Shown: positions 6,401-21,934 of the stretch, in pieces
Position numbering within the stretch: the stretch's first letter is position 1
How the letters are laid out: each line of letters starts with the position of its first letter
Source of the DNA: a virus
IMG/VR virus record: IMGVR_UViG_3300020439_000078
Location: 1 to 24,794 of that record
Length of the DNA stretch: 24,794 nucleotides
Direction: 5' to 3' (one strand)
The notes under the pieces: model-generated
The model's database searches: none
Seen by the model: only the letters and a program-made list of their open reading frames with translations
What the model was told of the DNA's origin: nothing
Made by a program: the position numbers and the translations under genes

Positions 6401-6706
6401 ATGGCTATTAAAAACAAAATAATAATAGATGGAATAGAAGCAGAACATTCAGATTATATATGTGGATATGGTTGTGGTAGAGATATATCTGAAACTGAAA
6501 TATCTGAAACTCCTTATGCTACTTATATATGTGGAGATATTGAGTGTTGGAATAGTTTTTGTTTGGAGTTTTGGAATCCACTTGAAGTAGAAGAAGAAGA
6601 AGTAGAAGTATGTGAAGGTTGCAGAGAAGATGAAGATACAAGTTATGATGGAATGTGTATGCTTTGTTGGGAGGAGTTAAATGAACATCTTGGAGAAGAT
6701 GTATAG
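6401..6706 (+). CDS. Cysteine-rich acidic zinc-binding-like protein
   Basis: 101 residues with two cysteine clusters. The first is C-x3-C at 21-25 with further Cys at 44 and 49 in the central segment. The second, near the C-terminus, is VCEGC then MCMLCW (about 71-91), a treble-clef or zinc-ribbon-like CxxC pair. Between them lies a run of glutamates (LEVEEEEVEV). It has a strong AAAGGAG start site and is coupled at its end (TAGTG) to the peptide deformylase gene. A zinc finger that binds protein or nucleic acid is likely; the partner is unknown. Confidence 0.75.
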   Translation: MAIKNKIIIDGIEAEHSDYICGYGCGRDISETEISETPYATYICGDIECWNSFCLEFWNPLEVEEEEVEVCEGCREDEDTSYDGMCMLCWEELNEHLGEDV

Positions 6707-7107
6707 TGAAAATAAATAAAGATATAAAACACCTAACTAAAAAATGTCAGTATGTTGAAGATGTTGAATGGAAACCAATTAAAAACAAATTGTTACTTGG
6801 TATGACTATAAGAAAAGACGCTATTGGTATTGCTTCAAATCAATTAGGTATGAATTATAATGCCTTTGTTATAAGGCATAAAAACAAACTAATGTTCTTT
6901 AAAAATCCATCTATAAAATGCTATGGAGATATATTTATACACCAAGAAAAATGCTTATCTATTAATGGAGAACATAAAGTTAAAAGATATACTAAAGTTG
7001 ATATAACTGATGATATAAATGGTAAACAAACATTTGAAGGTTATATGGCTTGTGTAATTCAACACGAATTTGACCACATACAAGGAATTTTAATAAATGG
7101 AAATTAA
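6706..7107 (+). CDS. def: Peptide deformylase
   Basis: This metalloenzyme removes the formyl group from the N-terminal methionine of new proteins. All three family motifs are present in divergent form: GIASNQLG (41-48, usual GxGxAAxQ, with Q46), EKCLS (81-85, usual EGCLS, with metal ligand C83) and QHEFDH (119-124, HExxH with H120, E121 and H124). At 133 residues it is a short, phage-type enzyme that lacks the long C-terminal helix of bacterial Def. It starts at GTG overlapping the stop of the cysteine-rich gene, with GGAGAAG upstream. Phage deformylases are known in marine phages, and the catalytic set here is complete, so it should be active. Confidence 0.9.
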   Translation: MKINKDIKHLTKKCQYVEDVEWKPIKNKLLLGMTIRKDAIGIASNQLGMNYNAFVIRHKNKLMFFKNPSIKCYGDIFIHQEKCLSINGEHKVKRYTKVDITDDINGKQTFEGYMACVIQHEFDHIQGILINGN

Positions 7108-7180
7108 TGGATATATTATTATGATACTTTTAATTTTCTGGTTATGGAATTTGTTTTTTAATAAGAATTTTAAATTATAG
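7097..7180 (+). CDS. 27-residue membrane peptide
   Basis: A very short frame starts inside the end of the deformylase gene (11-base overlap) with AAGGA some ten bases upstream, and ends at TAG 7178-7180. After MEING it is one hydrophobic, tryptophan-containing helix (YIIMILLIFWLWNLFF) with a basic end NKNFKL, as in single-pass phage membrane peptides. It otherwise fills the 80-base gap before the next gene. With so few residues it could be chance, so only moderate belief. Confidence 0.4.
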   Translation: MEINGYIIMILLIFWLWNLFFNKNFKL

Positions 7181-7189
7181 GAGTTATAT

Positions 7190-7390
7190 ATGCACTACGA
7201 AAGAAAAATACAAGCATTAGTAAATAGATTGAAAGATGAAGTAAAAGATTTAGAATCTTGCACACCAACAATATCAGAAAAAAATATGGATATTGTTACA
7301 AGAAATGAAGGGTTTATAGAGGGATTAAAACACTCTATAATAAGAATAGAAATGTTATTACCAATAAAAAACAAAAAAGGAGTAAAATGA
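7190..7390 (+). CDS. Hypothetical helical protein
   Basis: 66 residues, mainly helical. The N-terminal stretch YERKIQALVNRLKDEVKDLES is amphipathic and could form a coiled coil; a second helix with EGFIEGLKHSIIRIEMLL follows. There is no membrane segment despite the hydrophobic face. TAGGAG sits six bases before the ATG. The stop overlaps the next start (ATGA). The layout of paired helices resembles small phage proteins of unknown role; no family is recognised. Confidence 0.7.
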   Translation: MHYERKIQALVNRLKDEVKDLESCTPTISEKNMDIVTRNEGFIEGLKHSIIRIEMLLPIKNKKGVK

Positions 7391-7545
7391 AAAATTATTA
7401 TGCAGAAGTTAAAGTAAAGTGGGGAACAAGTTTTGAAGCAGATAGTAAAGAAGATTTTATTATAAAACTGAAAGAACAATTTAAACAAGACTACAATATT
7501 AAATTATCTGATAAAGAAATAAAAATTGAGGGAATATGGAAATAA
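7387..7545 (+). CDS. Hypothetical small protein
   Basis: 52 residues, starting on the stop of the preceding gene (ATGA) after AAAGGAG. The pattern is a beta strand (YYAEVKVKWGTSFEAD), a helix (KEDFIIKLKEQFKQDY) and a beta strand (KEIKIEGIWK), a compact beta-alpha-beta fold. Its 3' end overlaps the next gene by 10 bases, which supports a real coupled gene. Function not recognised. Confidence 0.6.
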   Translation: MKNYYAEVKVKWGTSFEADSKEDFIIKLKEQFKQDYNIKLSDKEIKIEGIWK

Positions 7546-7844
7546 CAGATAACAATGTAAACTTTAAAACAACAATAAAGAAAATAGAAAATATATGTTT
7601 AGATTATTCTTGGGGTAGCACAAAAAGAGAAAAAAAAGAAGTAACGTATAACATAGAAGTTAATGCAATAAAACAATATGGTTTTTTTGAAATGTATTGT
7701 GATGGTGGCGAAGAATATTATGCAGAAGGAGGTTTGTGGTTTACAGGTGGTAAACTTACAGATTATGATGGTATATTTGATTTACCAAGTACAATAAAAG
7801 AACAATTAACAAAGTGGGGTTTTGATACCTCAGAAATGGAGTGA
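7536..7844 (+). CDS. Hypothetical early protein
   Basis: 102 residues, acidic and aromatic. It appears beta-rich: KKEVTYNIEVNAIK, FFEMYCDGGEEYYAEGGLWFTGGKLTDYDG and a short C-terminal helix (STIKEQLTKWGF). The glycine-rich, tyrosine-rich hairpin in the middle (around 53-76) is the most distinctive part. The start lies within the end of the preceding gene behind GAGGGAAT. Similar layouts occur in small phage proteins of unknown function; no motif allows a functional call. Confidence 0.7.
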   Translation: MEITDNNVNFKTTIKKIENICLDYSWGSTKREKKEVTYNIEVNAIKQYGFFEMYCDGGEEYYAEGGLWFTGGKLTDYDGIFDLPSTIKEQLTKWGFDTSEME

Positions 7845-7850
7845 TAAGAA

Positions 7851-7961
7851 ATGGAAAAATTTATTTGTGGTATTTGTGGCGATTATTGTTGTGAATATAC
7901 TTACAATGAAGAAAAAGATGTAGATGAATGTAATAATTGTAAAGATAATGAAAATAACTAA
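7851..7961 (+). CDS. 36-residue zinc-ribbon-like peptide
   Basis: This very short frame encodes two CxxC knuckles, C6-x2-C9 and C27-x2-C30, plus an extra CC at 13-14, separated by an acidic loop. That is enough for a single zinc ribbon. It starts six bases after the preceding stop. The end (ENN then TAA) lies inside the first copy of the repeated 18-base leader described at 7953-8840. The regular cysteine spacing makes it likely to be real despite its size. Confidence 0.6.
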   Translation: MEKFICGICGDYCCEYTYNEEKDVDECNNCKDNENN

Positions 7962-7975
7962 TAGAAAGGAGTAAT

Positions 7976-8182
7976 ATGATTATAGAAATTGATGATTTAG
8001 ATGATTTTTACTATAAAATAGAAGATAATATTTTATATTGGTCTGAATATGGTATTGAAGAACTTAATGAAGTTGAAGATTTAACTGAATTAAAAGTCTT
8101 TCAATATCAAGAACTTGTTAAACAAATTAAACAATTATATCCAGATTATAATATAGATTATTTAATAGGTAAATTTATATAA
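7976..8182 (+). CDS. Hypothetical acidic protein, first of the repeat-led array
   Basis: 68 residues, very acidic, rich in D, E, I and Y. Two elements stand out: an N-terminal strand-like MIIEIDDLDDFYYKIEDNILYW and a C-terminal helix QYQELVKQIKQLYPDYNIDYLI. Its ribosome binding site (AAAGGAG) is supplied by the first copy of the repeated leader and its stop is inside the second. The strong acidity would suit a DNA mimic or protein-binding role, but this is only a thought. No family recognised. Confidence 0.65.
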   Translation: MIIEIDDLDDFYYKIEDNILYWSEYGIEELNEVEDLTELKVFQYQELVKQIKQLYPDYNIDYLIGKFI

Positions 8183-8203
8183 TAACTAATAGAAAGGAAT
8201 AAA

Positions 8204-8434
8204 ATGAAAAAATATAAATTAGGATATGAAGTTTATATAGATAATAAAGATAAAACATATAATACTGATGATGAAAAAATATATCTTTATATAGGCTATG
8301 ATAAAAATGAATCAGCAGATATAGAGTGTTTATATAATGATGCTATAAAAGAAGTAAGTAGAATATATAATACTAGTGAATATGAAAAAGAGTTTATGAG
8401 TACAGGAATAACAGGTTGGGAAGAATTTTTATAA
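8204..8434 (+). CDS. Hypothetical acidic protein in the repeat-led array
   Basis: 76 residues, acidic, rich in Y, D and K. The N-terminal half looks like beta strands (YKLGYEVYIDNK, KIYLYIGYDK) and the second half like a helix (ECLYNDAIKEVSRIYN) followed by a short glycine-tryptophan end (TGITGWEEFL). It begins after the second leader copy (AAAGGAAT). A 68-base non-coding gap with an added degenerate leader copy follows its stop. No family recognised. Confidence 0.65.
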   Translation: MKKYKLGYEVYIDNKDKTYNTDDEKIYLYIGYDKNESADIECLYNDAIKEVSRIYNTSEYEKEFMSTGITGWEEFL

Positions 8435-8502
8435 ATTAATACTTTAGAATATTTTATAAATACTTATAATAACTATGTTAATAACTAATAGAAAGGAATA
8501 AA

Positions 8503-8649
8503 ATGAAATATTATAAAATTTACGATAATATTGGAAATGATTATATTGGAAAATATACTAAATCTCAATTTAAAGAATATTTAAAATATTATAATAAAGA
8601 AATGGATTTAGAAGAAACAATAAAAGATTATACTTTAAAAGAATGTTAA
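8503..8649 (+). CDS. 48-residue hypothetical protein in the repeat-led array
   Basis: The short frame runs from ATG 8503 to TAA 8647-8649 and begins after the third leader copy. The sequence is aromatic and charged: MKYYKIYDNIGNDYIGKYTK, then helix SQFKEYLKYYNKEMDLEETIKDY. The strand-turn-strand-helix start echoes the neighbour at 8204 (KKYKLGYEVYIDNK), so distant kinship within the array is possible. The stop overlaps the fourth leader copy. Confidence 0.55.
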   Translation: MKYYKIYDNIGNDYIGKYTKSQFKEYLKYYNKEMDLEETIKDYTLKEC

Positions 8650-8670
8650 TAACTAATAGAAAGGCAAAAA

Positions 8671-8838
8671 ATGGAAAAAGATAAAAGATGTAGTTTTAGA
8701 GTAGTAATTGTAGTTAATGATGTAGCAGAACAATCTGTAAAAGATATGGAATACAATGCTCAAGGTTATATTAAAGACGATATTGAAAATGATAATCTTT
8801 ATATTGAAGATATTATAAAGATAGATGTTAATAACTAA
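8671..8838 (+). CDS. 55-residue hypothetical protein, last of the repeat-led array
   Basis: The frame runs from ATG 8671 to TAA 8836-8838. After a basic start it has a hydrophobic strand (SFRVVIVVNDVAEQSV), a charged helix-like segment (VKDMEYNAQGYIKDDIEND) and a second strand pair (LYIEDIIKIDVNN). It begins six bases after the AAAGGC of the fourth leader copy and ends within the truncated fifth copy, so it is flanked on both sides by repeats. No family recognised. Confidence 0.55.
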   Translation: MEKDKRCSFRVVIVVNDVAEQSVKDMEYNAQGYIKDDIENDNLYIEDIIKIDVNN

Positions 8839-9216
8839 TATTATAACCCTTATATTTGGTTTTGAGTACGGCAATCCCTTACCCCTAAGATTGTTCTTAG
8901 AGGTTGATTGCCTTTATAACCCCCACATTGTGGCTTGTCATACGGCTCGTAATATTTTATAAATGAACTCGTCTATTACGATTAATCCCAACGATTCGGC
9001 TATGTTCAAACCCCTCTTTGTAACCGATTTTATAACCAATATCGCAAAGAGTAGTAAACCAAAAACAATATTGGACAACAAATATAATCATAACTTTATA
9101 TATTTTACAAGAAAAACCTGCTATAAAATAAAAATAAAAAAATACTTGCGTAGAATTAAAGGAATCTTTAAATTCAACAAAATTATAATTGTAAATACAC
9201 AAATTTAGGAGATAGA
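8839..9216. other. Non-coding stretch with several inverted repeats
   Basis: These 378 bases lack a credible gene: open frames here have no ribosome binding site and low-complexity K/I/N products. The part from 8841 to 9074 is less AT-rich than its surroundings and carries stacked inverted repeats: 8870-8876 with 8906-8912, CGTAATA 8948-8954 with TATTACG 8974-8980, and CCAATAT 9036-9042 with ATATTGG 9068-9074. A 9-base direct repeat TTATAACCC (8841-8849 and 8914-8922) flanks the first hairpin. A perfect TATAAT at 9184-9189 may be the -10 box for the regulator gene downstream. Confidence 0.55.
8870..8912 (+). ncRNA. Strong stem-loop at the end of the repeat-led array
   Basis: An outer stem GGCAATC (8870-8876) with GATTGCC (8906-8912) encloses an inner stem CTAAGA (8885-8890) with TCTTAG (8895-8900) closed by the loop TTGT, plus a CC/GG step with one bulge. 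It is followed by TTTATAA, too short a U-run for a classic terminator. It may end the array transcript or be the first element of a structured RNA. Confidence 0.5.
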
Positions 9217-9435
9217 ATGGTAAATAACCAAATACACGAAGTGATAAAATCAAAAGGATTAACAAAGAAGTTTGTTTGTGATAAACTAGATATAAACTAT
9301 TCTGTGATGAGCCAGTTTATTAATGGAAAAATGACACCATCGCAAAGCAGATTGATAAAATTATCAAAATTTTTAGGTGTTAAGGTAAAAGATTTGTATC
9401 CTCACGCTAAACGTGTTATACACTACGAGATTTAA
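9217..9435 (+). CDS. Cro/C1-type (XRE) transcriptional regulator
   Basis: A 72-residue DNA-binding protein that is almost entirely one HTH_3 domain. Residues about 15-50 carry the classic pattern: LTKKFVCDKLDINYSVMSQFINGKMTPSQSRLIKLSKFLGVKVKDLYP. The end LGV.V.DLYP is the usual last helix of the family. There is no dimerisation or cleavage domain, so it resembles Cro-like or antirepressor-era small regulators rather than a LexA-like repressor. AGGAGA precedes the ATG. It follows the structured non-coding stretch with a TATAAT box, and leads the DNA-metabolism gene set, which it may control. The inverted repeats upstream are possible operators. Confidence 0.85.
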   Translation: MVNNQIHEVIKSKGLTKKFVCDKLDINYSVMSQFINGKMTPSQSRLIKLSKFLGVKVKDLYPHAKRVIHYEI

Positions 9436-9457
9436 TTTAGATTAAAAAGGAGAAAGA

Positions 9458-9601
9458 ATGAAAAATAAAAAAATAACAATACCAATATCAGAATGTGATA
9501 TAGAACATTTTGAAAAGCTAATATACCATAATTACGACCCATTTACTTGGACATTTGATGGAGTAGATGTAACATTTGTAAAAGAGGAGGAAATGGAATG
9601 A
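9458..9601 (+). CDS. 47-residue hypothetical protein
   Basis: The frame starts at ATG 9458 after AAAGGAG and ends at TGA 9599-9601, overlapping the next start (ATGA). After a basic start (MKNKKITIPIS) it is acidic, with an aromatic core YDPFTWTFDGVDVTFV that looks like a beta hairpin. The strong ribosome binding site and coupling at both sides support a real gene. No family recognised. Confidence 0.6.
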   Translation: MKNKKITIPISECDIEHFEKLIYHNYDPFTWTFDGVDVTFVKEEEME

Positions 9602-9747
9602 AAGTTAATGAAACTTGTAATGATTCACATTTGGTAGATATTGTATTAAGTGCCGAAGATATTAAAAAAATACAAAATGGTTTAGTTGCTCACATTGAGT
9701 GCGAAAAAGATGGAACAGAAATATTTATATTAAAGGAGAGAAGATAG
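9598..9747 (+). CDS. 49-residue hypothetical protein
   Basis: It starts on the stop of the preceding gene (ATGA at 9598) behind GAGGAGG and ends at TAG 9745-9747, one base before the next start. A helix is suggested at LVDIVLSAEDIKKIQNG, then a beta hairpin AHIECEKDGTEIFILKE. The ending GGAGAGAAG in its last codons supplies the ribosome binding site of the following gene. No family recognised. Confidence 0.6.
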   Translation: MKVNETCNDSHLVDIVLSAEDIKKIQNGLVAHIECEKDGTEIFILKERR

Positions 9748-9748
9748 A

Positions 9749-10306
9749 ATGAATATGAAAGACCTAGCAAAGAAATATGATTTAACAAAAGAAGATTATT
9801 GGAAAGAGCAACGTAGTGGTAAATATATTATAACACACGATGCTTGTGAGAAAATAGCAGATATAGAAGGTATCTCATTTGGTCCACCACAAATACTTAA
9901 TACAGAACAAAACTTTTGTAGAATGGTTGTTACTGCTAAAAAAGGAGATGTTGTGATATGGACTATTGGAGAAGCAGATAGTAAAAACTGCAAAAACTTA
10001 TACATTGGCTCAATGAGTGAGAAGCGTGGTAAAGATAGAGCAATCTTAAAACTTATTAACGCTTATGAGTATGGTATATACTCTGATGTAGAAGCAGATA
10101 GTTTTGCTAAACCTAAATATGAACACCGAACAGAGGACCAAGCCAAAGAGTTCGAAGAACTAAAAGGACACCCTGCTTTTGAAGGTCTTAAAAAGTTTTC
10201 TAATGATGAGTGGAGAAAATGTAATAGTATTCAAGACTTTGAAAATGTATTGATTAGAATGAGAAAAGAAAGAGACAAGTTTGATAGTATTACAGGAGAT
10301 GAGTAA
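9749..10306 (+). CDS. Possible Rad52-like single-strand annealing protein
   Basis: 185 residues. The core runs from YIITHDACEKIADIEGI (about 27-43) through FCRMVVTAKKGDVVIWTIGEA (56-76) to NLYIGSMSEKRGKDRAILKLI (about 83-103), then YSDVEADSF. This beta-hairpin sheet followed by a helix with EKR..DRAILKL matches a common phage family whose layout resembles the Rad52 fold (sheet then helix with repeated basic residues). Such proteins anneal complementary single strands in phage recombination. The C-terminal region is helical and charged. Neighbours (SSB-like, resolvase, NinB-like) fit recombination. The Rad52 link is inference from pattern memory; the family itself is often just hypothetical. 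Confidence 0.5.
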   Translation: MNMKDLAKKYDLTKEDYWKEQRSGKYIITHDACEKIADIEGISFGPPQILNTEQNFCRMVVTAKKGDVVIWTIGEADSKNCKNLYIGSMSEKRGKDRAILKLINAYEYGIYSDVEADSFAKPKYEHRTEDQAKEFEELKGHPAFEGLKKFSNDEWRKCNSIQDFENVLIRMRKERDKFDSITGDE

Positions 10307-10590
10307 TGAGTTGGTTTTGTAATAGTGAAGAAGCAAAAGAACATAAAAGAACTTGCACAAAAAACTCTTGGGAGTGTGGTAAATGTATTTGGATTGATGA
10401 ATCTTCTAATGCTATGTCTGAATATGGAACATTTGTAGAAAAAGAAGTTGAAATTAAACCTGTAAAACAAATACAAGCAGAAACTGAAAATGAATGGGAT
10501 ATTCTTGCAAAAAATGTAATTAAAGATGAAGATTATTCAAATTGCGACCACCCTCTGCTACCAGAAATTTTAAAGGTGTTTAAAAAATGA
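10306..10590 (+). CDS. Hypothetical cysteine-containing protein
   Basis: 94 residues. An N-terminal cysteine set C5, C17, C24 and C27 (the last pair in ECGKCIW) could hold one zinc ion. The rest is acidic and partly disordered, ending in a helix-like LLPEILKVFKK. The start overlaps the preceding stop (TAATG) and the end overlaps the next start, so it belongs to the DNA-metabolism operon. No family recognised; a small zinc-binding accessory protein is the cautious reading. Confidence 0.7.
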   Translation: MSWFCNSEEAKEHKRTCTKNSWECGKCIWIDESSNAMSEYGTFVEKEVEIKPVKQIQAETENEWDILAKNVIKDEDYSNCDHPLLPEILKVFKK

Positions 10591-10886
10591 AAAAACCAGA
10601 CCATAAAAAAATGAGAATAATGCTATCAAAAGATGTTAGCAAAGATATGAAAGATACATATATGTCAATGTCTAATGAAGATATTGTTTATGAATATGTA
10701 AAGCAGTTTGGGAGCATAGTTCCATTGAAGGAGTTAGAAGTGAACGAATTAATTAAATCAGAATTACAAGCAGAATGTAATGATTTTGCTAAAAAACTAA
10801 TGAGTATGCACGAAAATGTCCACATTGAGTTTAGTGTATTTACATTAGAAGAAATAGAAAACGAAATAGGAGATACAAGTAAATGA
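10587..10886 (+). CDS. Hypothetical helical protein
   Basis: 99 residues, mainly helical, with a basic start (MKKPDHKKMRIML) and a final strand-like HIEFSVFTLEEIENEIG. The central segment SNEDIVYEYVKQFGSIVPLKELEVNELIKSELQAECNDFAKKLMSM is probably two or three helices. It is coupled to both neighbours by 4-base overlaps, in an operon with SSB-like and recombination genes. No family or active-site pattern is seen. Confidence 0.7.
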   Translation: MKKPDHKKMRIMLSKDVSKDMKDTYMSMSNEDIVYEYVKQFGSIVPLKELEVNELIKSELQAECNDFAKKLMSMHENVHIEFSVFTLEEIENEIGDTSK

Positions 10887-11149
10887 AAATAAGTAGAATG
10901 AAAAAAGGCGAATGGTCTAAAATAAGAGCATTCTTTGATTTAGAAACTGATGAAGGATTTAATATTAAAGGTTTTAAATTGATTGAAGGTATTGAAGGTA
11001 TGTTTGTGGGATTTCCAAGCCAAAAGAACAAAGATGGCGAATACCAAGACACAATCTTTGCCGACAAAACTTTAAAACAACAAGTAAATAAATTAGCATT
11101 AGATTTTTATAGTAATGATAAATCTAATGATTCAGACGTTCCGTTTTAA
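10883..11149 (+). CDS. SpoVG-like single-strand-binding candidate with acidic SSB-type tail
   Basis: 88 residues. The N-terminal domain (1-75) has the SpoVG plan: a first strand, AFFDLETDEGFNIKGFKLIEG (part of 16-36), then GMFVGFPSQKNKDGEYQDTIFA (39-60), matching the conserved SpoVG section V.EG..GLF..MPS.....GE..D. SpoVG proteins bind nucleic acid. The C-terminus NDSDVPF (82-88) looks just like the acidic tail by which SSB recruits repair and replication partners (typically DDDIPF). Lying between annealing-like and replication-like genes, it may act as the phage SSB. The SpoVG likeness is by eye; the tail is plain. Confidence 0.7.
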   Translation: MKISRMKKGEWSKIRAFFDLETDEGFNIKGFKLIEGIEGMFVGFPSQKNKDGEYQDTIFADKTLKQQVNKLALDFYSNDKSNDSDVPF

Positions 11150-11646
11150 TGGATTTTGAAGTATTAATAAGAGATAAAAGTGGGGAGCAGAGATGGATTC
11201 ACATCTCAAAAGTCTTGGGTAAATCGAGGACCATAAAGACTTATTCCCCCTCCCCACCACTTCTCAAAGATACAAAAGGATTTGGCGAGTGGTATAATCT
11301 TTATGATAAAAAAACCACTAAGAAACAAGCAATAGATTACTGGTATAAAAATATTACAAAAGAAGATATACCAAAGATTATGGAGCACACTAAACTCTAT
11401 ATTAAAGATAGAGAAAAAGTGTATCGAAAAGACCCAATTAGATATTTAAGAGATAGGGTTTTTGAAGATGAAATTATAAAAGCTGAAAAGAAAATTGACC
11501 TTGATGAACTTTACCCTTATGATACAAGTGGATATAGCAGGAAGGGTCGTTGCTCTGCCTGTGGTGGAGTTGTTTTAGGAAATAAATTCACAATACACAA
11601 AGACGATAGTGATTGTTGTAAAGCAAAAATAAATAAATATAGGTAA
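11149..11646 (+). CDS. Replication-organizer-like protein with C-terminal zinc knuckle
   Basis: 165 residues. After a basic N-terminus, residues 45-110 (FGEWYNLYDKKTTKKQAIDYWYKNI, then YRKDPIRYLRDRVFEDEII) resemble the helical C-terminal module of phage replisome organizers and DnaD/O-like proteins. There FEEFW.LYPKK..K..A...W and P..YL....W are typical; this module helps load the replicative helicase. The end has CSACGG (C135, C138) and CC (156-157), a probable zinc knuckle. The usual N-terminal winged helix is lacking, so it may be a shortened form. It starts on the preceding stop. The function is inferred from pattern and operon context. Confidence 0.5.
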   Translation: MDFEVLIRDKSGEQRWIHISKVLGKSRTIKTYSPSPPLLKDTKGFGEWYNLYDKKTTKKQAIDYWYKNITKEDIPKIMEHTKLYIKDREKVYRKDPIRYLRDRVFEDEIIKAEKKIDLDELYPYDTSGYSRKGRCSACGGVVLGNKFTIHKDDSDCCKAKINKYR

Positions 11647-11649
11647 ATT

Positions 11650-11793
11650 ATGCAAACAGAGTATGAAACATTAGCCAAAGTATTAACAAAAGATTTAAAA
11701 ACTGCTATACAAGGTTTGGAAGCTATTGTAAACGAATCTAATGATGCAATAGCAGTTAAAATAGCAGAAGATACACTTGAAATAATTGATTAA
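11650..11793 (+). CDS. 47-residue hypothetical helical peptide
   Basis: The frame runs from ATG 11650 to TAA 11791-11793, starting three bases after the previous stop. It is a regular amphipathic two-helix peptide (YETLAKVLTKDLKTAIQGLEAIV and DAIAVKIAEDTLEIID) with good coding-like composition. The AGG in the preceding stop region is a weak ribosome binding site. It ends directly before the structured leader at 11801. No family recognised. Confidence 0.5.
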   Translation: MQTEYETLAKVLTKDLKTAIQGLEAIVNESNDAIAVKIAEDTLEIID

Positions 11794-13329: not shown

Positions 13330-13427
13330 TGTTAGATTGGACTAATTTATTAGTATACACAATTATAGGAGTTTTAGGTTTATTGTTTTGGTATGCAATC
13401 ATAATGCGATTTCTTGAGCTTTGTTAA
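13329..13427 (+). CDS. 32-residue membrane peptide
   Basis: This third membrane peptide is coupled by TAATG to the genes on both sides. It is a single strongly hydrophobic helix (NLLVYTIIGVLGLLFWYAIIM) with a basic residue and glutamate at the end (RFLEL). A weak site, GGAAGG, precedes it at 13318-13323. The run of three tiny membrane genes is more regular than expected by chance. Confidence 0.5.
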   Translation: MLDWTNLLVYTIIGVLGLLFWYAIIMRFLELC

Positions 13428-13684
13428 TGAAAGATTACTTAAAATATATAAAGTCTAAAAATTGTTTGGTGTGTGGAGTGTCGCCAGTAGACCCAGACCA
13501 TTTAGAACATTTAGGTATGGGTGGAGCAAACAAGGGTGGTCTTAAAGACTACTCTTGTGTGCCTCTATGCAGAAAACATCATACAGAAAGACATAATATG
13601 GGTATAAAAGATTTTGAGTGGACTTATGGTATTAATCTATGGAAAGAAGCGTTTTATTTATTAAGGGGGTATTTTGCAGAATGA
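13427..13684 (+). CDS. HNH/Ref-like endonuclease (DUF968-like)
   Basis: 85 residues from ATG 13427, chosen because it overlaps the preceding stop; the frame can extend to a TTG at 13421 without support. The layout is C13-x2-C16, then D24-H25 (PDHLEHLGMGG), C49 with PLCRKHHTERH (H51, H52, H56). This is the beta-beta-alpha-metal HNH form seen in phage P1 Ref and DUF968 proteins, which nick DNA in recombination. The tail (FEWTYGINLWKEAFYLLRGYF) is typical of the family. It stands beside a NinB/Orf-like gene, as in lambda-type recombination blocks. Confidence 0.8.
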   Translation: MKDYLKYIKSKNCLVCGVSPVDPDHLEHLGMGGANKGGLKDYSCVPLCRKHHTERHNMGIKDFEWTYGINLWKEAFYLLRGYFAE

Positions 13685-13827: not shown

Positions 13828-14174
13828 AATTCGCAGGTAAAATTAAGAATGGTAAATTAACACTTGATGATAATCTTGGTTTTAAGGATTATTTATGTCA
13901 AATTGAGGGTGATGTTCACTTAGAAATAAAACCTGCCGAAAAGGTGCGTTCTCCACAACAAAATGCCTATTATAGAGTTATTATAAGAATATTATCAAAA
14001 GAATTAGGTTATACTGAAGCCGAAATGCACAATGCTATAAAAGAAAAGTATGAGATAGAATCAACTAAACAACTATCAAAGCCAGAGTTTACTGAACTAC
14101 TTGAAACTATAAAAAGATGGGCAGTTATAGATATGGGTATTGTTCTGCCGAACGCTAAGCAATCTCATCAATAG
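13824..14174 (+). CDS. NinB/Orf-like recombination mediator
   Basis: 116 residues. Hallmarks of the lambda Orf/NinB family are present: RSPQQNAYYRVIIRILSKELGYTEAEMHNAIKEKY (42-76), where S..QN.YYW and E.GYT.EE.H are conserved, then ESTKQLSKPEFTELLETIKRWA (79-100) and a final IVLPN. NinB binds single-stranded DNA and helps load the annealing protein. The gene ends the rightward operon and overlaps the convergent tail gene by 20 bases, with no space for a terminator. The HNH gene just upstream fits a recombination cassette. Confidence 0.8.
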   Translation: MKFAGKIKNGKLTLDDNLGFKDYLCQIEGDVHLEIKPAEKVRSPQQNAYYRVIIRILSKELGYTEAEMHNAIKEKYEIESTKQLSKPEFTELLETIKRWAVIDMGIVLPNAKQSHQ

Positions 14175-15261
14175 TCATACTTACTTTATAAGTATTAAAA
14201 GCTACTTGTTGTACACTTAAACTATTTTCTCTAAAATTACATATAGCATATCTATCAGGTTCGTTAGAATCTTTATCGTCTGTGAATATAAACGGCAAAG
14301 TACCACCTAATGTACAATTCCACACAAAATTAAAACTATTATCTGATAACATAGGGTTTGGCGTATTATTATTAGGCGTTACATCGTCTGACGTTAGTGT
14401 GTTAGAAACCTCATTATCTATCCACATATCACTTTCAGATATATAAGAAAATGTTAATTTCCAACTCCTTAATCCTTTACGACCTATACCACTTTTTGAT
14501 ATTTGGTTAAAATCATTTATTTGCTCATTAATATCATCAGTATTTTCATCGTCTGTGGTTGATGCAACTGTTGCTAAATCTAACTCAAATGGTGGATATT
14601 TATAAGTTCCATTAGGACCATTCATAGTCCATTCTGTTGGTCCATCATAGTATATATTGGCAAGTGTTTTACCACCTACAGTTTTTTGACGTTTTATACC
14701 ATCAAATCGTCTTGACATTGTAAGGTTTAAATCAGGCGAATTTGGACAATCAAAATACTTACCTACCACTAAAGAACCTAATTGTTGTGTTCCTAAAATT
14801 TCATTACCCAAACCATAATATATACTAAATGACCTCCAGTATTGGTTATCAGAAGCAAAATCAAAAATAGTTGTTCCATTGTAAGTTGGATTTATTTGAT
14901 TATAAGAAGAGTTAGAATTTAGTATTTCGTTTACAGGTTGAAATGTTATGTCAGTTGTTTCAGATGTTAATCCATACTTACCATAAAATTTAAATGTACT
15001 TTCATTAGAACCTAAATTGTGATTTAATAAAGCACAAAAATTAACAGGAAAAGATGTTTTTGTTGTATTGTTAATATGGTTACCAATACGAGCTACTTCA
15101 TTTACACTTAATGTATTTACTTGTTTTGTATAAGGATTAGCACAATTCATATATAATAATTCTGCACCACCATTACCATCATCCCAACCTAGTTGTCCTG
15201 TGGCGTGTAAAAATGTTACCATATCTACATAAAATCTTGGCGTTTTAACTTGCTTTCCCAT
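14155..15261 (-). CDS. Tail-tip or baseplate structural protein, last of the tail operon
   Basis: 368 residues, polar, rich in N, T, S, D and Y, typical of extracellular virion proteins. Beta-rich stretches appear throughout (for example WRSFSIYYGL, RSWKLTFSYISESDMW and TYKVSMTIDEIA), with a low-complexity acidic linker TTDDENTDDINEQINDF near the middle. No catalytic motif is visible. The distal position after the tail-hub and cohesin-like genes suggests a tail-tip or receptor-facing part. It starts on the stop of the upstream gene, and its 3' end overlaps the NinB-like gene by 20 bases. The family is not recognised; position is the main support. Confidence 0.55.
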   Translation of the reverse strand: MGKQVKTPRFYVDMVTFLHATGQLGWDDGNGGAELLYMNCANPYTKQVNTLSVNEVARIGNHINNTTKTSFPVNFCALLNHNLGSNESTFKFYGKYGLTSETTDITFQPVNEILNSNSSYNQINPTYNGTTIFDFASDNQYWRSFSIYYGLGNEILGTQQLGSLVVGKYFDCPNSPDLNLTMSRRFDGIKRQKTVGGKTLANIYYDGPTEWTMNGPNGTYKYPPFELDLATVASTTDDENTDDINEQINDFNQISKSGIGRKGLRSWKLTFSYISESDMWIDNEVSNTLTSDDVTPNNNTPNPMLSDNSFNFVWNCTLGGTLPFIFTDDKDSNEPDRYAICNFRENSLSVQQVAFNTYKVSMTIDEIA

Positions 15262-15770
15262 TAATATCCTCCTGTACTACTACGTCTTGTTTGGGTTTTA
15301 ATTTTTGTTTTTTTAGTTGGTTGTGCTTCTGGTAATCCATAATCAGGTAAGTTGTACTTAGTTGTTGTCGCCTTACCTTTTTTTACTTTACTTTTGAAAT
15401 TATCCCATTGGTCTGCTTCTGCACTCATAGACCATTGTTGGTTTGTCCAAACAGGGTTTACATTTTCAATATTACATATTATACGTCTTGCTTCATTGTT
15501 TGCTACAATTACCTTTTTTATCGTAAAACTACCCTCATAAGTGAATAGTTTTTGATTTTTAATAGGTAAGCCTTGTAACCCTATTAGTAGCATTTTATTT
15601 TTATTTCCTTGCATTATCCAGCCATCTGGAAGTGTTGGCGTAATATCTGCTATACCTACAAAATCAATCTCTATACCTAGTATATCTACATTAGATTCTA
15701 TAGTACAATCGCCATCATTACATATAATTGATGACTTACCTGTTGCTGGTTCTGTTTTATTGTATATCAT
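15261..15770 (-). CDS. Tail-operon protein with a cohesin-like domain
   Basis: 169 residues. Residues about 23-95 look like a cohesin-type beta sandwich: an early strand ILGIEIDFVGIADI (30-43; cohesins often have AGFQFDI), then DGWIMQGNKNKMLLIGLQGLPIKNQKLFTYEGSFTI (part of 49-84; compare the usual G...S.....V.GFS..G..I..G.G.L..I.F). The C-terminus is basic and disordered (KKTKIKTQTRRSSTGGY). The gene directly follows the dockerin-bearing tail protein on the same strand, with no gap, so the two could bind to each other. The cohesin reading is by eye only and needs a profile search; another virion beta-sandwich is the alternative. Confidence 0.5.
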   Translation of the reverse strand: MIYNKTEPATGKSSIICNDGDCTIESNVDILGIEIDFVGIADITPTLPDGWIMQGNKNKMLLIGLQGLPIKNQKLFTYEGSFTIKKVIVANNEARRIICNIENVNPVWTNQQWSMSAEADQWDNFKSKVKKGKATTTKYNLPDYGLPEAQPTKKTKIKTQTRRSSTGGY

Positions 15771-18700
15771 TTAAATACCTAATATTTGATTGACTAATAT
15801 TACCATATCTAACACATTAATTTGATTGTCTTGATTCATATCTACAATATACTTACCATCTAAATCTATAGGAATATTACTAAAATCGGCTTGTGTTATT
15901 GCAACTACTGTTCCAACAATATCTAAAATGTTTACGACACCATCTTGATTCAAATCACCATAAATACCATTAAAATTGTTTCTAAGTATAATTTGATTAA
16001 AATTTAAAGCATAATTATCTTGAGTAACATTAGATTTTATTATTATATTGTAATTTAATATTGCTCTTTGCTGATTATCTAAAAACTGTACATTTTCTGT
16101 ATACATATTAGGTGTTATATCAACATTATCACCATATACAGAATCATTTTCTACAACAATTGCATTTACTAAGTCAGTTGCATCTATTCCTACTAATCCA
16201 CTATCTATATTAACACCATTATGCTCTATATTAGCTGTAGATGATATTAATGTAACGCTTTCAATGGTAACGCTAGTTTCATAATTTGTGTTAGTTACTG
16301 CTGATATAAGACCTGATGTTAAATTTGCATCATCTTGATACCATACACCATTAAAAGTTGTTTCTTCATCATCTATCTCATCTTGATATATATTACGTTC
16401 ATAAGGGTTAGGTATGTTGTAAAATCCTAAATCATCATCACTCATACCAAAGTCGCCACGATGTACTTGTACTAACTCTAAACTTACTTTACTTAACGAT
16501 TTAGAAGCCTTAGTAACAAAAAACACAGGATACATAAGTTGTCCATTTTTAACAAACTCTTGTGTGTAATCAAAACCAAAAGCAAGTTTACCACCTAACA
16601 ACTCGTCTATTCTAATATAATCACCAGTTTCTATGTACATATAACTAGGAGGTAAATCTATTTTAGCTGTTAGATGTTGGTTAGCATACCACATTAGCAA
16701 TCTTCTTTGTAGTTTTCGTGCCGTATCCTTATCTCTAATATACTCAGATTCTATCTCTAATTTACCATCATCATCTTTTAATCCGTAATATGCAACATCA
16801 TAAAGCATACTAGGAGTTAATTCTTGTGTTAATTCGTCTAAGGTATCTACAAAATTACCATTGTTATCTTCTATACCATAAGTAGTTTCTTCTGAAAAAT
16901 CACCTGAACCATAATCTTTCTTGTATTTAACATTAACTTGATTTTTTACATCTTCTAATTTTGTAAGACCAAAAGAGTATTTAATAACATCTAAACTATC
17001 AACAATCTCAAACTGATTATAATCTTCTATATTTTGTTTTAAATCAATAAACTTAAAATTACCAGAACTATCAAAAGAAGGTATATAAATTGACGATTTA
17101 CATAAGTTATCTATTACATTTTTAGCTTCTTGTTGTTCTATTAATGTAAAACTATTAATCCAATCATCATCTATATCTTGATTAGGAAAAGTAAAGTCTT
17201 TTTGATAATCAAGTTCTGTTTGTAGTAAGTTTTGTAATATTTCATAAGGTTTAGTCATAACCTTTTCATTGTCATCTAATCTACCTTTAATACTTCCATA
17301 AAAAGATTCTTGTGTGTAATCTGTGATTAATATGTCTTGTAACAAATAAAATTGTTTTAAGTTTGCAATTCCTGATTGCATTTCACCTCTTGAATCTATT
17401 GATGGTAATCCCCATTGTATACTATCAAAAGCATCAGTTCTATTAAATTGTCTAATTTGATTGTTATACAAATCGCCACCTAAATCATCATTAGTGTATC
17501 TAAATTCAGAATCAAAATTTTCAAATGTATGTTGATGGTTAGGAACTTGACAATGAGTTTCCCAATCATTTGTATCAGGATAATTTTCGTCCCATTTGTT
17601 TTTATCTGTAATCATATCTTCAAAGGTTTTATTACGAATATCATCTCTAATTGTTAAGCCTCTTTCAGCCCAAAAAGTAACAGGGTGCGAAGAAGTTTGT
17701 GTAACAATTGAATTTTGAAAATTACTAGGTATAAAATAATCAATTTTATAAAATATTTTTGAAGCACATACATAACTTCCTATATCTGCAAATTGTAGTC
17801 TTGCAAAACTACCAGTAGTATTTTCGTAAGGACCATTATTTTGTGCAGTTAAATGCAATCCACTTGTATTATTTGCATTTTGAATCCATTGTACTGGAAA
17901 TGTAGCTATTTTATTTTGTGATTTGTAATTATTATCTAATTCTTCAACTATACCTTCTTGATTATTTGTATTACTTTCATTATTTAAATTAGTAGGTTTC
18001 CACCAAGAAAATGTAGCATTTGGATTTGTTTCGTTCCAATCTGCATCATAATAAGTATCTCCAATACTAAACAAGTTGTCTAAATCTTGGTCGGCTGAAT
18101 CATTACTAAAATTGTATACTGATTTTGCAGCATCAAGCATTTCATTGTTGTTAAATCCAAAAAACTTATTGCAAGAACCAAACCACCATTCATCTAAGTT
18201 ACTACCACCTTCAACAAAATATGGTTGATGATTATTTGCAAAAAATGATACCTTTTCGACAGGTCTATAAATTCGTGTAGGTATACCTTGTTTATTTTCA
18301 TCTAAATCTTCACCTAATACCCAATTTTGATATATATAATCACCTATAATATTAACTTTTGCTGAATTGTCTACAGTAGAGCTTTCAAACTCATAAATAG
18401 GCATATCTTCATAATAACCAGAATATTTCATACCAAAATTATATGGTAATCTTTCAGATATAGGTAAATAACCATCTTTATATACAAATATGTGTGTGTT
18501 TTCTGACAAATAATTAGGGTATAATATAGTTTGTTTAATATATGGATTTAATTCCTCTATATTAGCCACATTAGTCCATAATCCACCTATTTCTGTATTA
18601 GACTGTTCTATTATTAGTTCATTGTCTTTTGTAAGTATTAAAGGAGATTTATCAACATAACCATAAACTAATGGAAATGGTTTACCTTGAATTTCGTCAT

Positions 18701-19208
18701 CATATACATATTTATCATCTATAGTAGTAGATGGTATCTGTGTTTTAAGTTTTTGTTCAGTTAAATCTTCTAGTGTAAGGTTTAAAGTTTCTGCCGATTG
18801 ACTATAACGTCTAATAGTACCTGTATACACTAAAAGACAATCATCTAAGGTTTCTAATCCATTAGCAGCATAATACACTTGTACTACTGCATTTAGTAAA
18901 CTAGGAATATCGTCTGAGAAAATCTTGCCATTATAGGGAGCATTTGATATAGATAGGGATACACTCGAAATTGTGTATTTATTGTTTATAATGTCTGCTT
19001 TTGAGCTAATAGAAGGACTATTAAGTAGTAAACCCTTATACGCCTCACCACCTATGTTTGTTTCCTTAATTGATAAATTAATTACTTCTGTCGCCGAATC
19101 TAATGATTCATCTATCTGCACACCCTTATAAATCCTAACCAAAGGGTATAAAGACGTTCTAGTACCATTACCTAGTGCTTGTTTGAATTTAGGAGGTAAC
19201 GTCAGCAT
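15771..19208 (-). CDS. Large tail-tip/hub protein with C-terminal dockerin-like domain
   Basis: 1145 residues. The N-terminal part (1-200) resembles tail-hub proteins: strands with RIYKGVQIDE, DIPSLLNAVVQVYYAANGLE and a YGYV-type loop before KSPLI. A long asparagine- and aspartate-rich middle (350-650) may be an extended receptor-facing domain. Residues about 700-930 return to hub-like strands. The C-terminus (1084-1145) has two calcium-loop repeats of dockerin type I: GDLNQDGVVNILD (1084-1096) and VDMNQDNQINVLD (1122-1134), each D.N.D followed by N..D and a helix, ending NQILGI. Dockerins bind cohesins. It directly follows the tape measure in operon order and directly precedes the cohesin-like gene. 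Confidence 0.7.
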   Translation of the reverse strand: MLTLPPKFKQALGNGTRTSLYPLVRIYKGVQIDESLDSATEVINLSIKETNIGGEAYKGLLLNSPSISSKADIINNKYTISSVSLSISNAPYNGKIFSDDIPSLLNAVVQVYYAANGLETLDDCLLVYTGTIRRYSQSAETLNLTLEDLTEQKLKTQIPSTTIDDKYVYDDEIQGKPFPLVYGYVDKSPLILTKDNELIIEQSNTEIGGLWTNVANIEELNPYIKQTILYPNYLSENTHIFVYKDGYLPISERLPYNFGMKYSGYYEDMPIYEFESSTVDNSAKVNIIGDYIYQNWVLGEDLDENKQGIPTRIYRPVEKVSFFANNHQPYFVEGGSNLDEWWFGSCNKFFGFNNNEMLDAAKSVYNFSNDSADQDLDNLFSIGDTYYDADWNETNPNATFSWWKPTNLNNESNTNNQEGIVEELDNNYKSQNKIATFPVQWIQNANNTSGLHLTAQNNGPYENTTGSFARLQFADIGSYVCASKIFYKIDYFIPSNFQNSIVTQTSSHPVTFWAERGLTIRDDIRNKTFEDMITDKNKWDENYPDTNDWETHCQVPNHQHTFENFDSEFRYTNDDLGGDLYNNQIRQFNRTDAFDSIQWGLPSIDSRGEMQSGIANLKQFYLLQDILITDYTQESFYGSIKGRLDDNEKVMTKPYEILQNLLQTELDYQKDFTFPNQDIDDDWINSFTLIEQQEAKNVIDNLCKSSIYIPSFDSSGNFKFIDLKQNIEDYNQFEIVDSLDVIKYSFGLTKLEDVKNQVNVKYKKDYGSGDFSEETTYGIEDNNGNFVDTLDELTQELTPSMLYDVAYYGLKDDDGKLEIESEYIRDKDTARKLQRRLLMWYANQHLTAKIDLPPSYMYIETGDYIRIDELLGGKLAFGFDYTQEFVKNGQLMYPVFFVTKASKSLSKVSLELVQVHRGDFGMSDDDLGFYNIPNPYERNIYQDEIDDEETTFNGVWYQDDANLTSGLISAVTNTNYETSVTIESVTLISSTANIEHNGVNIDSGLVGIDATDLVNAIVVENDSVYGDNVDITPNMYTENVQFLDNQQRAILNYNIIIKSNVTQDNYALNFNQIILRNNFNGIYGDLNQDGVVNILDIVGTVVAITQADFSNIPIDLDGKYIVDMNQDNQINVLDMVILVNQILGI

Positions 19209-21934
19209 TAACCGATACCAAAATCGCTACCTCTACGGACAGCTTCTTTAATTGATTCTGCAAGTTCACCTTCTACAAAATCTTGTGTTAAAACATTACC
19301 TGTAACGTTTACATTGATGTTTCCACCACCACCTGTTTGATTCATTTGGTTAAGTGTTTCTAAACCGATAGATTCTACTGCATTTCTACTCATTACAAAC
19401 TCGCCACGTTCTGCTTCTATAATAGTACCACCTTGTGAGTGTGGTCTACCACCAACATAACCACCTTGCTCAAATTGTAAAAAAGGAGAACCTCCACTAG
19501 CAGAATTAGACATATTATCTTTATTTCCTGAAATCACAGAACTTAAAGCTGCAAACATAGCTGCACCAAGTGCAGGAACACCTAAATTTGCAGGAAATGG
19601 AAGTTTAGCCATAGCCTTTGCCATATGTGTTATTACAGTTTCTGATAGTTTTGCCATAATAACATCTTTAGCAGCAGCTTTAGCTGCAGCAGAAGCAGTT
19701 TTATAACCTTTACCTGTTTGAATAGCAGATTGTAGAATTTGTTTATTAAGTGATACTTGTTGATTTTGTAATTGTAATTTATCTTTATCGCTATTCAATC
19801 CATCTTTATCGACTTCATTTAATTTATTTTTTTGTGTTATTAATTCTTCTATTTTTTGACGTAAAAAATCAATACCTTCTGCTTCTTTTTCATTTAATTG
19901 ACCCATCATATTCATTAAAAGAGCTTTGTTGAGCATAGCTTGATTTTCTTGTATTTGAACATCTAAATCTTGTTTTCTTAAATTAAGCAGTTCAGACTTT
20001 ACATCAGCCATATCTTGTTCAGCGTCATTTAAACCTTGTTGAGTAATCTTTAATTCTTCTAATTCAGTTATTAAATCTTTTTGTATTTGACTTAATTCAT
20101 AACCAAGCTCTATTTCTTTTTTTCTAATAACTAAAGCTGCACCACTTAGTGTCATCTCTGCTTGTAATGTTTGAATTTGTTTGCTAAGAGCATCTTCATA
20201 TTCTAATGCAGTTTTAACTCTTTCCATTTCAGATTCATTTAGTTCATCACCTTTATTTCTAGTAAGTCCCATCTGAAAAGCAACTTCATCAATCCTTTTT
20301 TGTAATTCTGCTTGTGATTCTGTAACTTCATCTGTAGATGCTCCGTATGTTTTAAGTATAGTTACAAGACCTGCTACTGCTGAAGCTGCTGCAATATATG
20401 GATTTGCACTAACTGCAAGATTAAAAGCTACTTGTTTTACAGTTGCCCTTGTAAGTGTTATAGCATATAAATTTTTAGCAGCAGTTACAAGAGAAGTTGC
20501 TATAGCCACAGCAGTAAATCCTGCTTTAGCAGTAAGTAATGCAGTTGCTAAACCTACAAAACCTGCTGTTAGTTTTCTAAAAAACTCTAAAGAAGTGCCT
20601 TCTGCTATACTTTTAAGAGATGAAGCTAAACTAAGAACTAAAGGAACTAATGCTTCACCTAATCTTTCTTGCATATCACCAAAAGCATTATTTGCTTGTG
20701 CTAATTGACCTTTAGTTGTCTGTGCCATTAATTGTGCTAATTCACCAAACTTTTCATTTACACCTTCGGTTATAGCTTGAAATCTTTCTTGACCTTTAAG
20801 TGTAGAATCTACTTCTATCCCATATCTTGATAATGCGTTAGTACTAGAACTAAATGTTTTTGCTATTAATTGTCCAGCAGTATTTAAATCTAAACCTAAA
20901 CCTTCTGCTAAATTTAATGTAGCTTCAGTTAAACCTTTTGCTTGTTCTTCATTAGCACCAAATGAACCCATTGTAGCAATTACTGAGTTTATAACTTCAT
21001 CACCAAATCTAGTAACCTTTTGTAATTCTCCAGAATATTCATTAAGACCTTTTGCTGCTTTAGTACCAAAAACTCTGCCTAATCTTAATACACTTTCTTC
21101 TTGTTCTGCAAAAGCCTTTACTTGCCGTATTATAGCACTAGACACTAATGTCATAGCAAATGATGCAAGTAATAATTTAGAACGTAGTGTAGCAAAACTA
21201 TTAGCTAATAATCTACCACCATTAGTAATGTCAAACATTCCTGTTTTTGTTTTTTTGATTGTTATGTTGGCTAATTGTAAAGATTTTCTCATTTGCCCTA
21301 TAGCAACTGAGTTACCTTGTAATGCTTTTTTAACTGTTCTGAGACTTATTCCTAATTCTTTAAAGTTTTTTCCAGCAGCTTTTGCAGATATTGTTAGATT
21401 TTGTACTTCTTTTCTAGCTAAAACTCTAACTTGTTTTAAATCTTTTTCTACTTGTATTTGTTTTTTTGCAGTTTCTACGAGTTTTTGTTCTGCTGCTCTA
21501 ATTCTTTTAAGTCGTGCTATTCTTCTTTTTTTACCTGCTCTTGCCCTTCTTTTTTTAGCAAGTCTTTCTCTTTCTCTTTCTACATCTAAAAGGTTTTGGT
21601 GTGCTATTCCTTGTTGATGTGCTAAATCTAATAATTTTTTATCTGTATTTGCTGCTCTTTCTTTTTCTTTGTTTGCTTTTTTTTCTGCAGCAGCATTAGC
21701 TTTTTGTATTTGAGCTTGTTTTTTAGCTTCATCATTTAATTTCTTTTGAGTTTTAGCTAAATCTGATTGTTGTTTTTTTAATTTTTTTTGTTCTGCTACT
21801 AAAGACTTTTGTGTTTTTAATAGTTTGTCTGCAGATTTAGTAAATTTATCTACAACTTTGACTAATTTTTCAAATCCTTGTTTAAATCCAGTATCTTCTA
21901 TGGATACTTTTATCTTAATATCTGGTTCAGCCAT
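19208..21934 (-). CDS. Tail tape measure protein
   Basis: 908 residues, the second-longest gene, as usual for the protein that sets tail length and lines the tail tube. The first 190 residues are K/A/Q-rich coiled coil (for example KKLKKQQSDLAKTQKKL). A hydrophobic stretch near 250-270 (LLLASFAMTLVSSAI) leads into the tape-measure core with FGTKAAKGLNEYSGELQKVT and FGANEEQAKGLTEATLNLAEGLGLD. More hydrophobic helices follow at about 460-530 and 795-825, and a second coiled coil lies between. The end GGYVGGRPHSQGGTIIEAERGEFVMS is a typical phage tape-measure ending. Order relative to the chaperones and tail hub is standard. Confident. Confidence 0.92.
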   Translation of the reverse strand: MAEPDIKIKVSIEDTGFKQGFEKLVKVVDKFTKSADKLLKTQKSLVAEQKKLKKQQSDLAKTQKKLNDEAKKQAQIQKANAAAEKKANKEKERAANTDKKLLDLAHQQGIAHQNLLDVERERERLAKKRRARAGKKRRIARLKRIRAAEQKLVETAKKQIQVEKDLKQVRVLARKEVQNLTISAKAAGKNFKELGISLRTVKKALQGNSVAIGQMRKSLQLANITIKKTKTGMFDITNGGRLLANSFATLRSKLLLASFAMTLVSSAIIRQVKAFAEQEESVLRLGRVFGTKAAKGLNEYSGELQKVTRFGDEVINSVIATMGSFGANEEQAKGLTEATLNLAEGLGLDLNTAGQLIAKTFSSSTNALSRYGIEVDSTLKGQERFQAITEGVNEKFGELAQLMAQTTKGQLAQANNAFGDMQERLGEALVPLVLSLASSLKSIAEGTSLEFFRKLTAGFVGLATALLTAKAGFTAVAIATSLVTAAKNLYAITLTRATVKQVAFNLAVSANPYIAAASAVAGLVTILKTYGASTDEVTESQAELQKRIDEVAFQMGLTRNKGDELNESEMERVKTALEYEDALSKQIQTLQAEMTLSGAALVIRKKEIELGYELSQIQKDLITELEELKITQQGLNDAEQDMADVKSELLNLRKQDLDVQIQENQAMLNKALLMNMMGQLNEKEAEGIDFLRQKIEELITQKNKLNEVDKDGLNSDKDKLQLQNQQVSLNKQILQSAIQTGKGYKTASAAAKAAAKDVIMAKLSETVITHMAKAMAKLPFPANLGVPALGAAMFAALSSVISGNKDNMSNSASGGSPFLQFEQGGYVGGRPHSQGGTIIEAERGEFVMSRNAVESIGLETLNQMNQTGGGGNINVNVTGNVLTQDFVEGELAESIKEAVRRGSDFGIG

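Follow-up and report, generated by a model that had tools for sequence, protein, structure and literature searches.

A putative split dockerin-cohesin module in the tail operon of an uncultured marine phage family

The virus contig described here encodes a dockerin at the end of one predicted tail protein and a cohesin-like domain in the protein that follows it, and we judge it probable that the two form a calcium-dependent joint that fixes the smaller protein, hereafter p169, to the tail hub or tip. Computation establishes the domains, their universal linkage, a predicted docked arrangement and fused homologues, and it is from these that we infer binding in the virion and a need for calcium. 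By sequence comparison, the contig carries what appears to be a split form of a dockerin-cohesin module related to that of its likely host.

The analyzed stretch (the window) is a 24,794-base IMG/VR virus record that is probably a fragment, since both of its ends interrupt open frames; its relatives reach about 35 kb. The minus strand carries a siphovirus-like tail operon in the order tail-terminator-like gene (PF20765, E 0.003), tail genes, tape measure, 1145-aa protein, p169 and 368-aa protein. Specifically, the 908-aa tape-measure protein (19208..21934, minus strand; phrog_3336, E 2.1e-9) is followed directly by the gene for the 1145-aa protein (15771..19208, minus strand), relatives of which occupy about 76 IMG/VR loci. 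This protein has no match to known hub profiles and is classed as hub- or tip-like by gene position only. Downstream of p169 (15261..15770, minus strand), the 368-aa protein (14155..15261, minus strand) is the next gene wherever the contigs of relatives extend so far. Searches with it gave weak matches only, including a weak hit of one relative to the tail-fiber family phrog_4209 (E 0.0012), and it is a possible next component of the tail tip. Elsewhere, the plus strand encodes a phage peptide deformylase (6706-7107; PF01327, E 1e-20), a SpoVG-like protein (10883-11149; PF04026, E 4e-13) followed by a 165-aa ORF, and an HNH-nuclease-like or DUF968 protein (13421-13684).

The original prediction, made from the sequence of the window alone, placed a type I dockerin with two calcium loops at the C-terminus of the 1145-aa protein, and this assignment is borne out. 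The dockerin occupies residues 1083-1145 (15774..15962, minus strand), of which 1083-1143 align to the full length of PF00404. The score falls just below the cut-off of 22.9 bits when the whole protein is searched by hmmscan (20.1 bits) and exceeds it in a six-frame search (25.6 bits). Furthermore, PF00404 is matched by all 16 aligned family members, at best with E 2e-12, and a profile of the family matches solved dockerins (6kg9, E 3e-8). Calcium loop 1 (15921..15956, minus strand; residues D1085 to D1096, DLNQDGVVNILD) and calcium loop 2 (15807..15842, minus strand; residues D1123 to D1134, DMNQDNQINVLD) belong to tandem loop/helix repeats with the D-x-[ND]-x-D...N..D spacing by which dockerins are recognized. 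Across 27 aligned sequences (alignment numbering), D2, D6, N10 and D13 are invariant in the first loop and D40, D44 and D51 in the second, where N48 is nearly so. Because the coordinating positions are kept in both loops, the dockerin is probably functional. It is preceded by a variable domain (residues about 985-1080; 15969..16256, minus strand) whose beta or Ig-like character was judged by eye only.

The relation of p169 to cohesins is visible only through structure and intermediate families. Searches with p169 by phmmer and by profile gave no direct sequence match in Pfam, PHROG or PDB, and the cohesin profile PF00963 matches none of 43 p169 relatives; we therefore call the protein cohesin-like and do not file it under that family. 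Thus, the profile and structure searches proposed with the original prediction succeeded for PF00404 and for structural similarity to cohesins, and failed for PF00963. An AF2 model of p169, built with 23 aligned phage relatives, has nine strands at residues 12-103 (15462..15737, minus strand) with pLDDT of about 80. When this model was compared with 350,542 PDB chains by Foldseek, ranks 1-11 were all cohesins, led by 6kgc_A (E 1.3e-4, probability 1.00) and with modest TM-scores of 0.33-0.46 against the top cohesins; a repeat with a better model placed cohesins at ranks 1-13. The predicted cohesin fold thus stands, with different limits: the core is longer than the region of residues 23-95 first proposed, and it is followed by a basic tail ending in GGY.

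Profile comparison supplies the intermediate families. It connects p169 to p169-like domains of Marinimicrobia at 99.7%, these domains to small Pfam-positive Marinimicrobia cohesins at 90%, and the latter to canonical cohesins at 95%, compared with about 0-1% for controls comprising type IX sorting domains, the beta domain of the tip protein and dockerins (0.08% for p169 against type IX sorting domains). The p169 tail (residues 104-169; 15264..15461, minus strand) is predicted to be disordered, and is as conserved as the core when judged by invariant alignment columns. It carries a TxYNLPDYxLP motif, a basic stretch and the C-terminal GGY; among 55 distinct sequences, 53 have the GGY end and 45 have LPDYxLP.

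The two genes adjoin on the same strand after the tape measure, as originally noted, and in fact they touch. The stop codon of the tip gene meets the p169 start codon in frame (TAA/ATG, 15768..15773, minus strand, with the ATG at 15770), and an identical touching junction occurs in about 11 relatives, with TAA or, in L012, TAG. To model docking, the tip stop codon was read as glycine, giving a single chain of dockerin, Gly and p169 residues 1-108; this is a modelling device, and read-through is not claimed. The alignment comprised 53 rows, including 11 natural pairs. In a single AF2 prediction, the fused chain reached a mean pLDDT of 90.5 and a pTM of 0.87; the linker is modelled less firmly than the rest, and p169 again has nine strands. 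By our arithmetic (d0 about 5 Å, 177 residues), a chain whose two domains fold well but have no defined placement should give a pTM of about 0.6, and so the relative placement of the dockerin and p169 is predicted with confidence. The judgment rests on the pLDDT and pTM of one fused chain, and AF2 may know cohesin-dockerin geometry; dockerin and p169 are in this sense predicted to dock. The original prediction had named the lack of a cohesin fold in p169, or of a surface in it compatible with the dockerin, as grounds for giving up the pairing. Instead, the fold is predicted and AF2 docks both domains confidently.

Linkage of the two domains is universal among the phage relatives that can be read. 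IMG/VR scans with the tip protein, p169 and both alignments yielded 62 distinct tip ends, and all 58 that are readable have a dockerin and an adjacent p169. Of the remaining four, two are the separate tip halves of L296, one has a broken frame and one lies on a contig that stops 57 bases further on. Nowhere among the relatives examined does p169 occur without a dockerin. We rejected trivial operon structure, with its short overlaps, as the reason for this linkage because of the adjacency in every readable relative, the absence of p169 without a dockerin, and the fusion of the domains in host proteins. Queries with the tip protein, p169 and a dockerin consensus, the last used because the dockerin alignment is too variable for pattern scans, had no match in 50,697 deposited phage records; for the dockerin consensus this null is weak evidence, given a short query and active low-complexity filtering.

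The best evolutionary argument for a joint is L296, a 35,220-base contig on which the two domains are fused. There, a 974-aa ORF carries a dockerin (residues 777-834) and a p169-like domain (845-935, E 8e-21). The tip, encoded at 6998-11760, is split at a different site, and a p169-like tail (LPD...RRGGY) ends the N-terminal half; the GGY tail is apparently an element that can move. Three divergent p169 queries yielded little, and it was the scan with the tip alignment that uncovered this contig. The split form predominates, with one fused tip among the IMG/VR relatives. Provided that the two domains bind, one and the same assembled object would result from either arrangement, split or fused. 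Among viral protein models, the dockerin-p169 model finds a match in BFVD entry A0A516LNX3 (1389 aa; 167 aligned columns, TMq 0.61), which is possibly a fully fused tip.

Fusion is also the rule in Marinimicrobia. Neomarinimicrobiota are among the closest dockerin-like matches on genome contigs, at up to 66% identity. When 199 Marinimicrobia genomes were searched with a p169 profile, 25 had relatives at E<=0.1 and about 21 still did at E<=0.001, with a best match of 1.3e-18 and up to 11 copies per genome; the profile found none in 629 genomes of Bacteroidota (345), Poribacteria (85) and Planctomycetota (199). A scan of genome contigs with peptide patterns from the p169 alignment found no cellular relative, which reflects a limit of that method because the profile search did find relatives within Marinimicrobia. 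In all 36 proteins examined, a dockerin lies directly before the p169-like domain, with a linker of 3-21 aa, and in 35 of them a type IX sorting domain follows. Many secreted proteins (L197-L211, L218, L222-L241) have these three domains as a C-terminal cassette. Together with the fused phage protein, these 36 proteins lend support to the dockerin-cohesin pairing first proposed.

In an unrooted tree, a well-supported branch (98/96) separates the phage sequences from the rest, which is consistent with a single acquisition by phages; transfer from host to phage is the more likely direction. The shared domains suggest that Marinimicrobia are the likely hosts. Two further observations concern these bacteria. 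Three of their small proteins (L162, L164 and L165), encoded adjacent to TrkA-type potassium-uptake-like genes, combine a Pfam cohesin with a type IX sorting tail and are possible surface cohesins. In addition, Marinimicrobia bins contain tip homologues of about 700 aa (L219 and L220) with no dockerin in the part seen, that of L219 lying directly after a tape-measure-like ORF.

Based on these data, we propose that the tip dockerin and the cohesin-like domain of p169 would bind each other in a calcium-dependent manner. Made as a protein of its own, p169 would thereby be secured to the tail tip, and its conserved LPDY...GGY tail would in turn engage another tail component, for which the 368-aa protein is a possible candidate. 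As a possible consequence, the joint would lock only after lysis, in calcium-rich seawater. The arrangement looks like a borrowed bacterial fastener that is reused for holding a phage tail tip together.

An explanation that we regard as unlikely, yet more probable than the other alternatives, is that the domains serve host attachment by mimicry, with the tip dockerin binding a cohesin on the host surface, p169 binding host dockerins, or both; before they meet host partners, the two phage domains may keep each other covered. Potential partners are plentiful, as eight Marinimicrobia genomes hold 46-112 dockerins each, Pfam cohesins occur in 119 of the 199 genomes, and the p169-like domains of Marinimicrobia reside mostly on proteins with type IX tails. 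The pattern of variation also speaks for this explanation. Residues from about 985 to 1080 are the most variable region of the 1145-aa protein, and among close relatives p169 is 96-99% identical while dockerins are 52-58% identical. Between L007 and L015 the dockerin alone has been exchanged (56% identity, against 98% for p169), whereas in the pairs L002/L003 and L067/L073 beta domain and dockerin were exchanged together between near-identical flanking tip sequence and p169. Exchange of this kind is expected of a host-range determinant, and the variability of the tip end would fit a host-facing role as well. Regardless, the C-terminal end of the tip, judged by these alignments, behaves as a variable, recombining module that faces a constant p169. 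The suggested role of p169 as an exchangeable receptor-binding module is not supported in that form, as the part exchanged between close relatives is the beta domain and dockerin of the tip. A tightly co-evolving interface between dockerin and p169, which we expected as support for mutual binding, is not seen among 54 phages: distances correlate with r 0.41 between dockerin and p169, compared with 0.84 between p169 and the C-terminal part of the hub. Against mimicry, the constant co-encoding of the two domains and their fusion in L296 and in the host fit mutual binding, and the V/I-L positions after each calcium loop are conserved although the rest of the dockerin varies. These positions are usually important for cohesin recognition, and p169 could thus still bind all of the dockerin variants.

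A specific form of attachment, which we hold to be distinctly improbable, is that the phage adsorbs by calcium-dependent partner exchange with cohesins and the dozens of dockerins on the surface of a Marinimicrobia cell. In free virions, dockerin and p169 would keep each other capped, and at the host they would switch to its partners. If true, virus-receptor recognition of this kind would be new, and it would account for the fact that variation and exchange in the tip fall on its dockerin end. Slightly more doubtful still is a permanent structural module, in which the pair forms a stable two-part fold that serves as spacer or cap where the hub ends, the gene split is neutral and no regulated joint exists. 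The fused homologues in the host and in L296, with their short linkers, suggest that pairing was ancestrally intramolecular, and a short linker suffices in the docked model. However, the split form predominates, and a p169 tail conserved like the core suggests a binding role beyond capping. Finally, the genes could be chance neighbours, with the dockerin a leftover or a binder of something else and p169 an unrelated beta-sandwich tail protein. The missing direct Pfam cohesin match, the likeness of many beta-sandwich folds and the weak co-variation agree with this, but the exclusively cohesin top ranks in the structure search, the universal adjacency, the invariable dockerin before the p169-like domain in the host and the high pTM make it very improbable. 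The joint between tip and p169 therefore remains our preferred reading.

The closest known counterparts are the secreted Marinimicrobia proteins (e.g. L197, L198, L202 and L204), which have homologous domains in matching order with a similar short linker. There the cassette lies on one secreted chain, whereas the phage uses two touching genes, and the place of the LPDY...GGY tail of p169 is taken by a sorting domain in the host proteins. Cellulosomal type I pairs (6kgc, 4dh2 and 2vn5) likewise join a two-loop dockerin to a nine-stranded partner, as in the docked phage model, but the phage partner is shorter (about 92 aa), has no PF00963 match and is encoded by a virus. The window contains a single cohesin-like domain and a dockerin, with no scaffoldin and no dockerin-bearing glycoside hydrolases, and the carbohydrate-binding domains typical of cellulosomes are absent from the phage system. 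Non-cellulosomal cohesins from Archaeoglobus fulgidus (2xdh) and Clostridium perfringens (2vo8, 2w1n) are among the nearest Foldseek matches of p169, yet these are cellular domains on surface or secreted proteins. With siphovirus hub or Tal-type proteins, the phage tip shares its position after the tape measure and a variable insert flanked by conserved N- and C-terminal regions; it differs by an end dockerin with a dedicated cohesin-like partner, and its membership in this group is by position only. Another uncultured bacterial phylum, Cloacimonadota, also uses dockerins and cohesins together with a C-terminal surface-attachment domain of type IX kind, but it has a tandem-cohesin scaffoldin, and no phage link (PMC8542988). 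In the openly available literature, we found no description of a dockerin-cohesin pair in a phage tail or virion, nor of the Marinimicrobia cassette as a unit, which is apparently undescribed; the isolated dockerin annotations that do appear in phage papers refer to different matters (PMC5967307, PMC3558961).

If the preferred reading is true, a virus has taken from the secretion repertoire of its host an orthogonal plug and socket, gated by calcium, with which it fastens parts of its tail. Cohesin-dockerin binding is among the strongest of protein joints, known from cellulosomes and from bacterial and archaeal surfaces. Cytoplasmic calcium is too low for dockerin folding, whereas seawater holds about 10 mM, and for this reason the joint could act as a timing device. 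Marinimicrobia (SAR406) are abundant deep-ocean bacteria with few known phages. The finding would tie an uncultured marine phage family to these bacteria, and it exposes in them an apparently undescribed dockerin-cohesin-type IX cassette.
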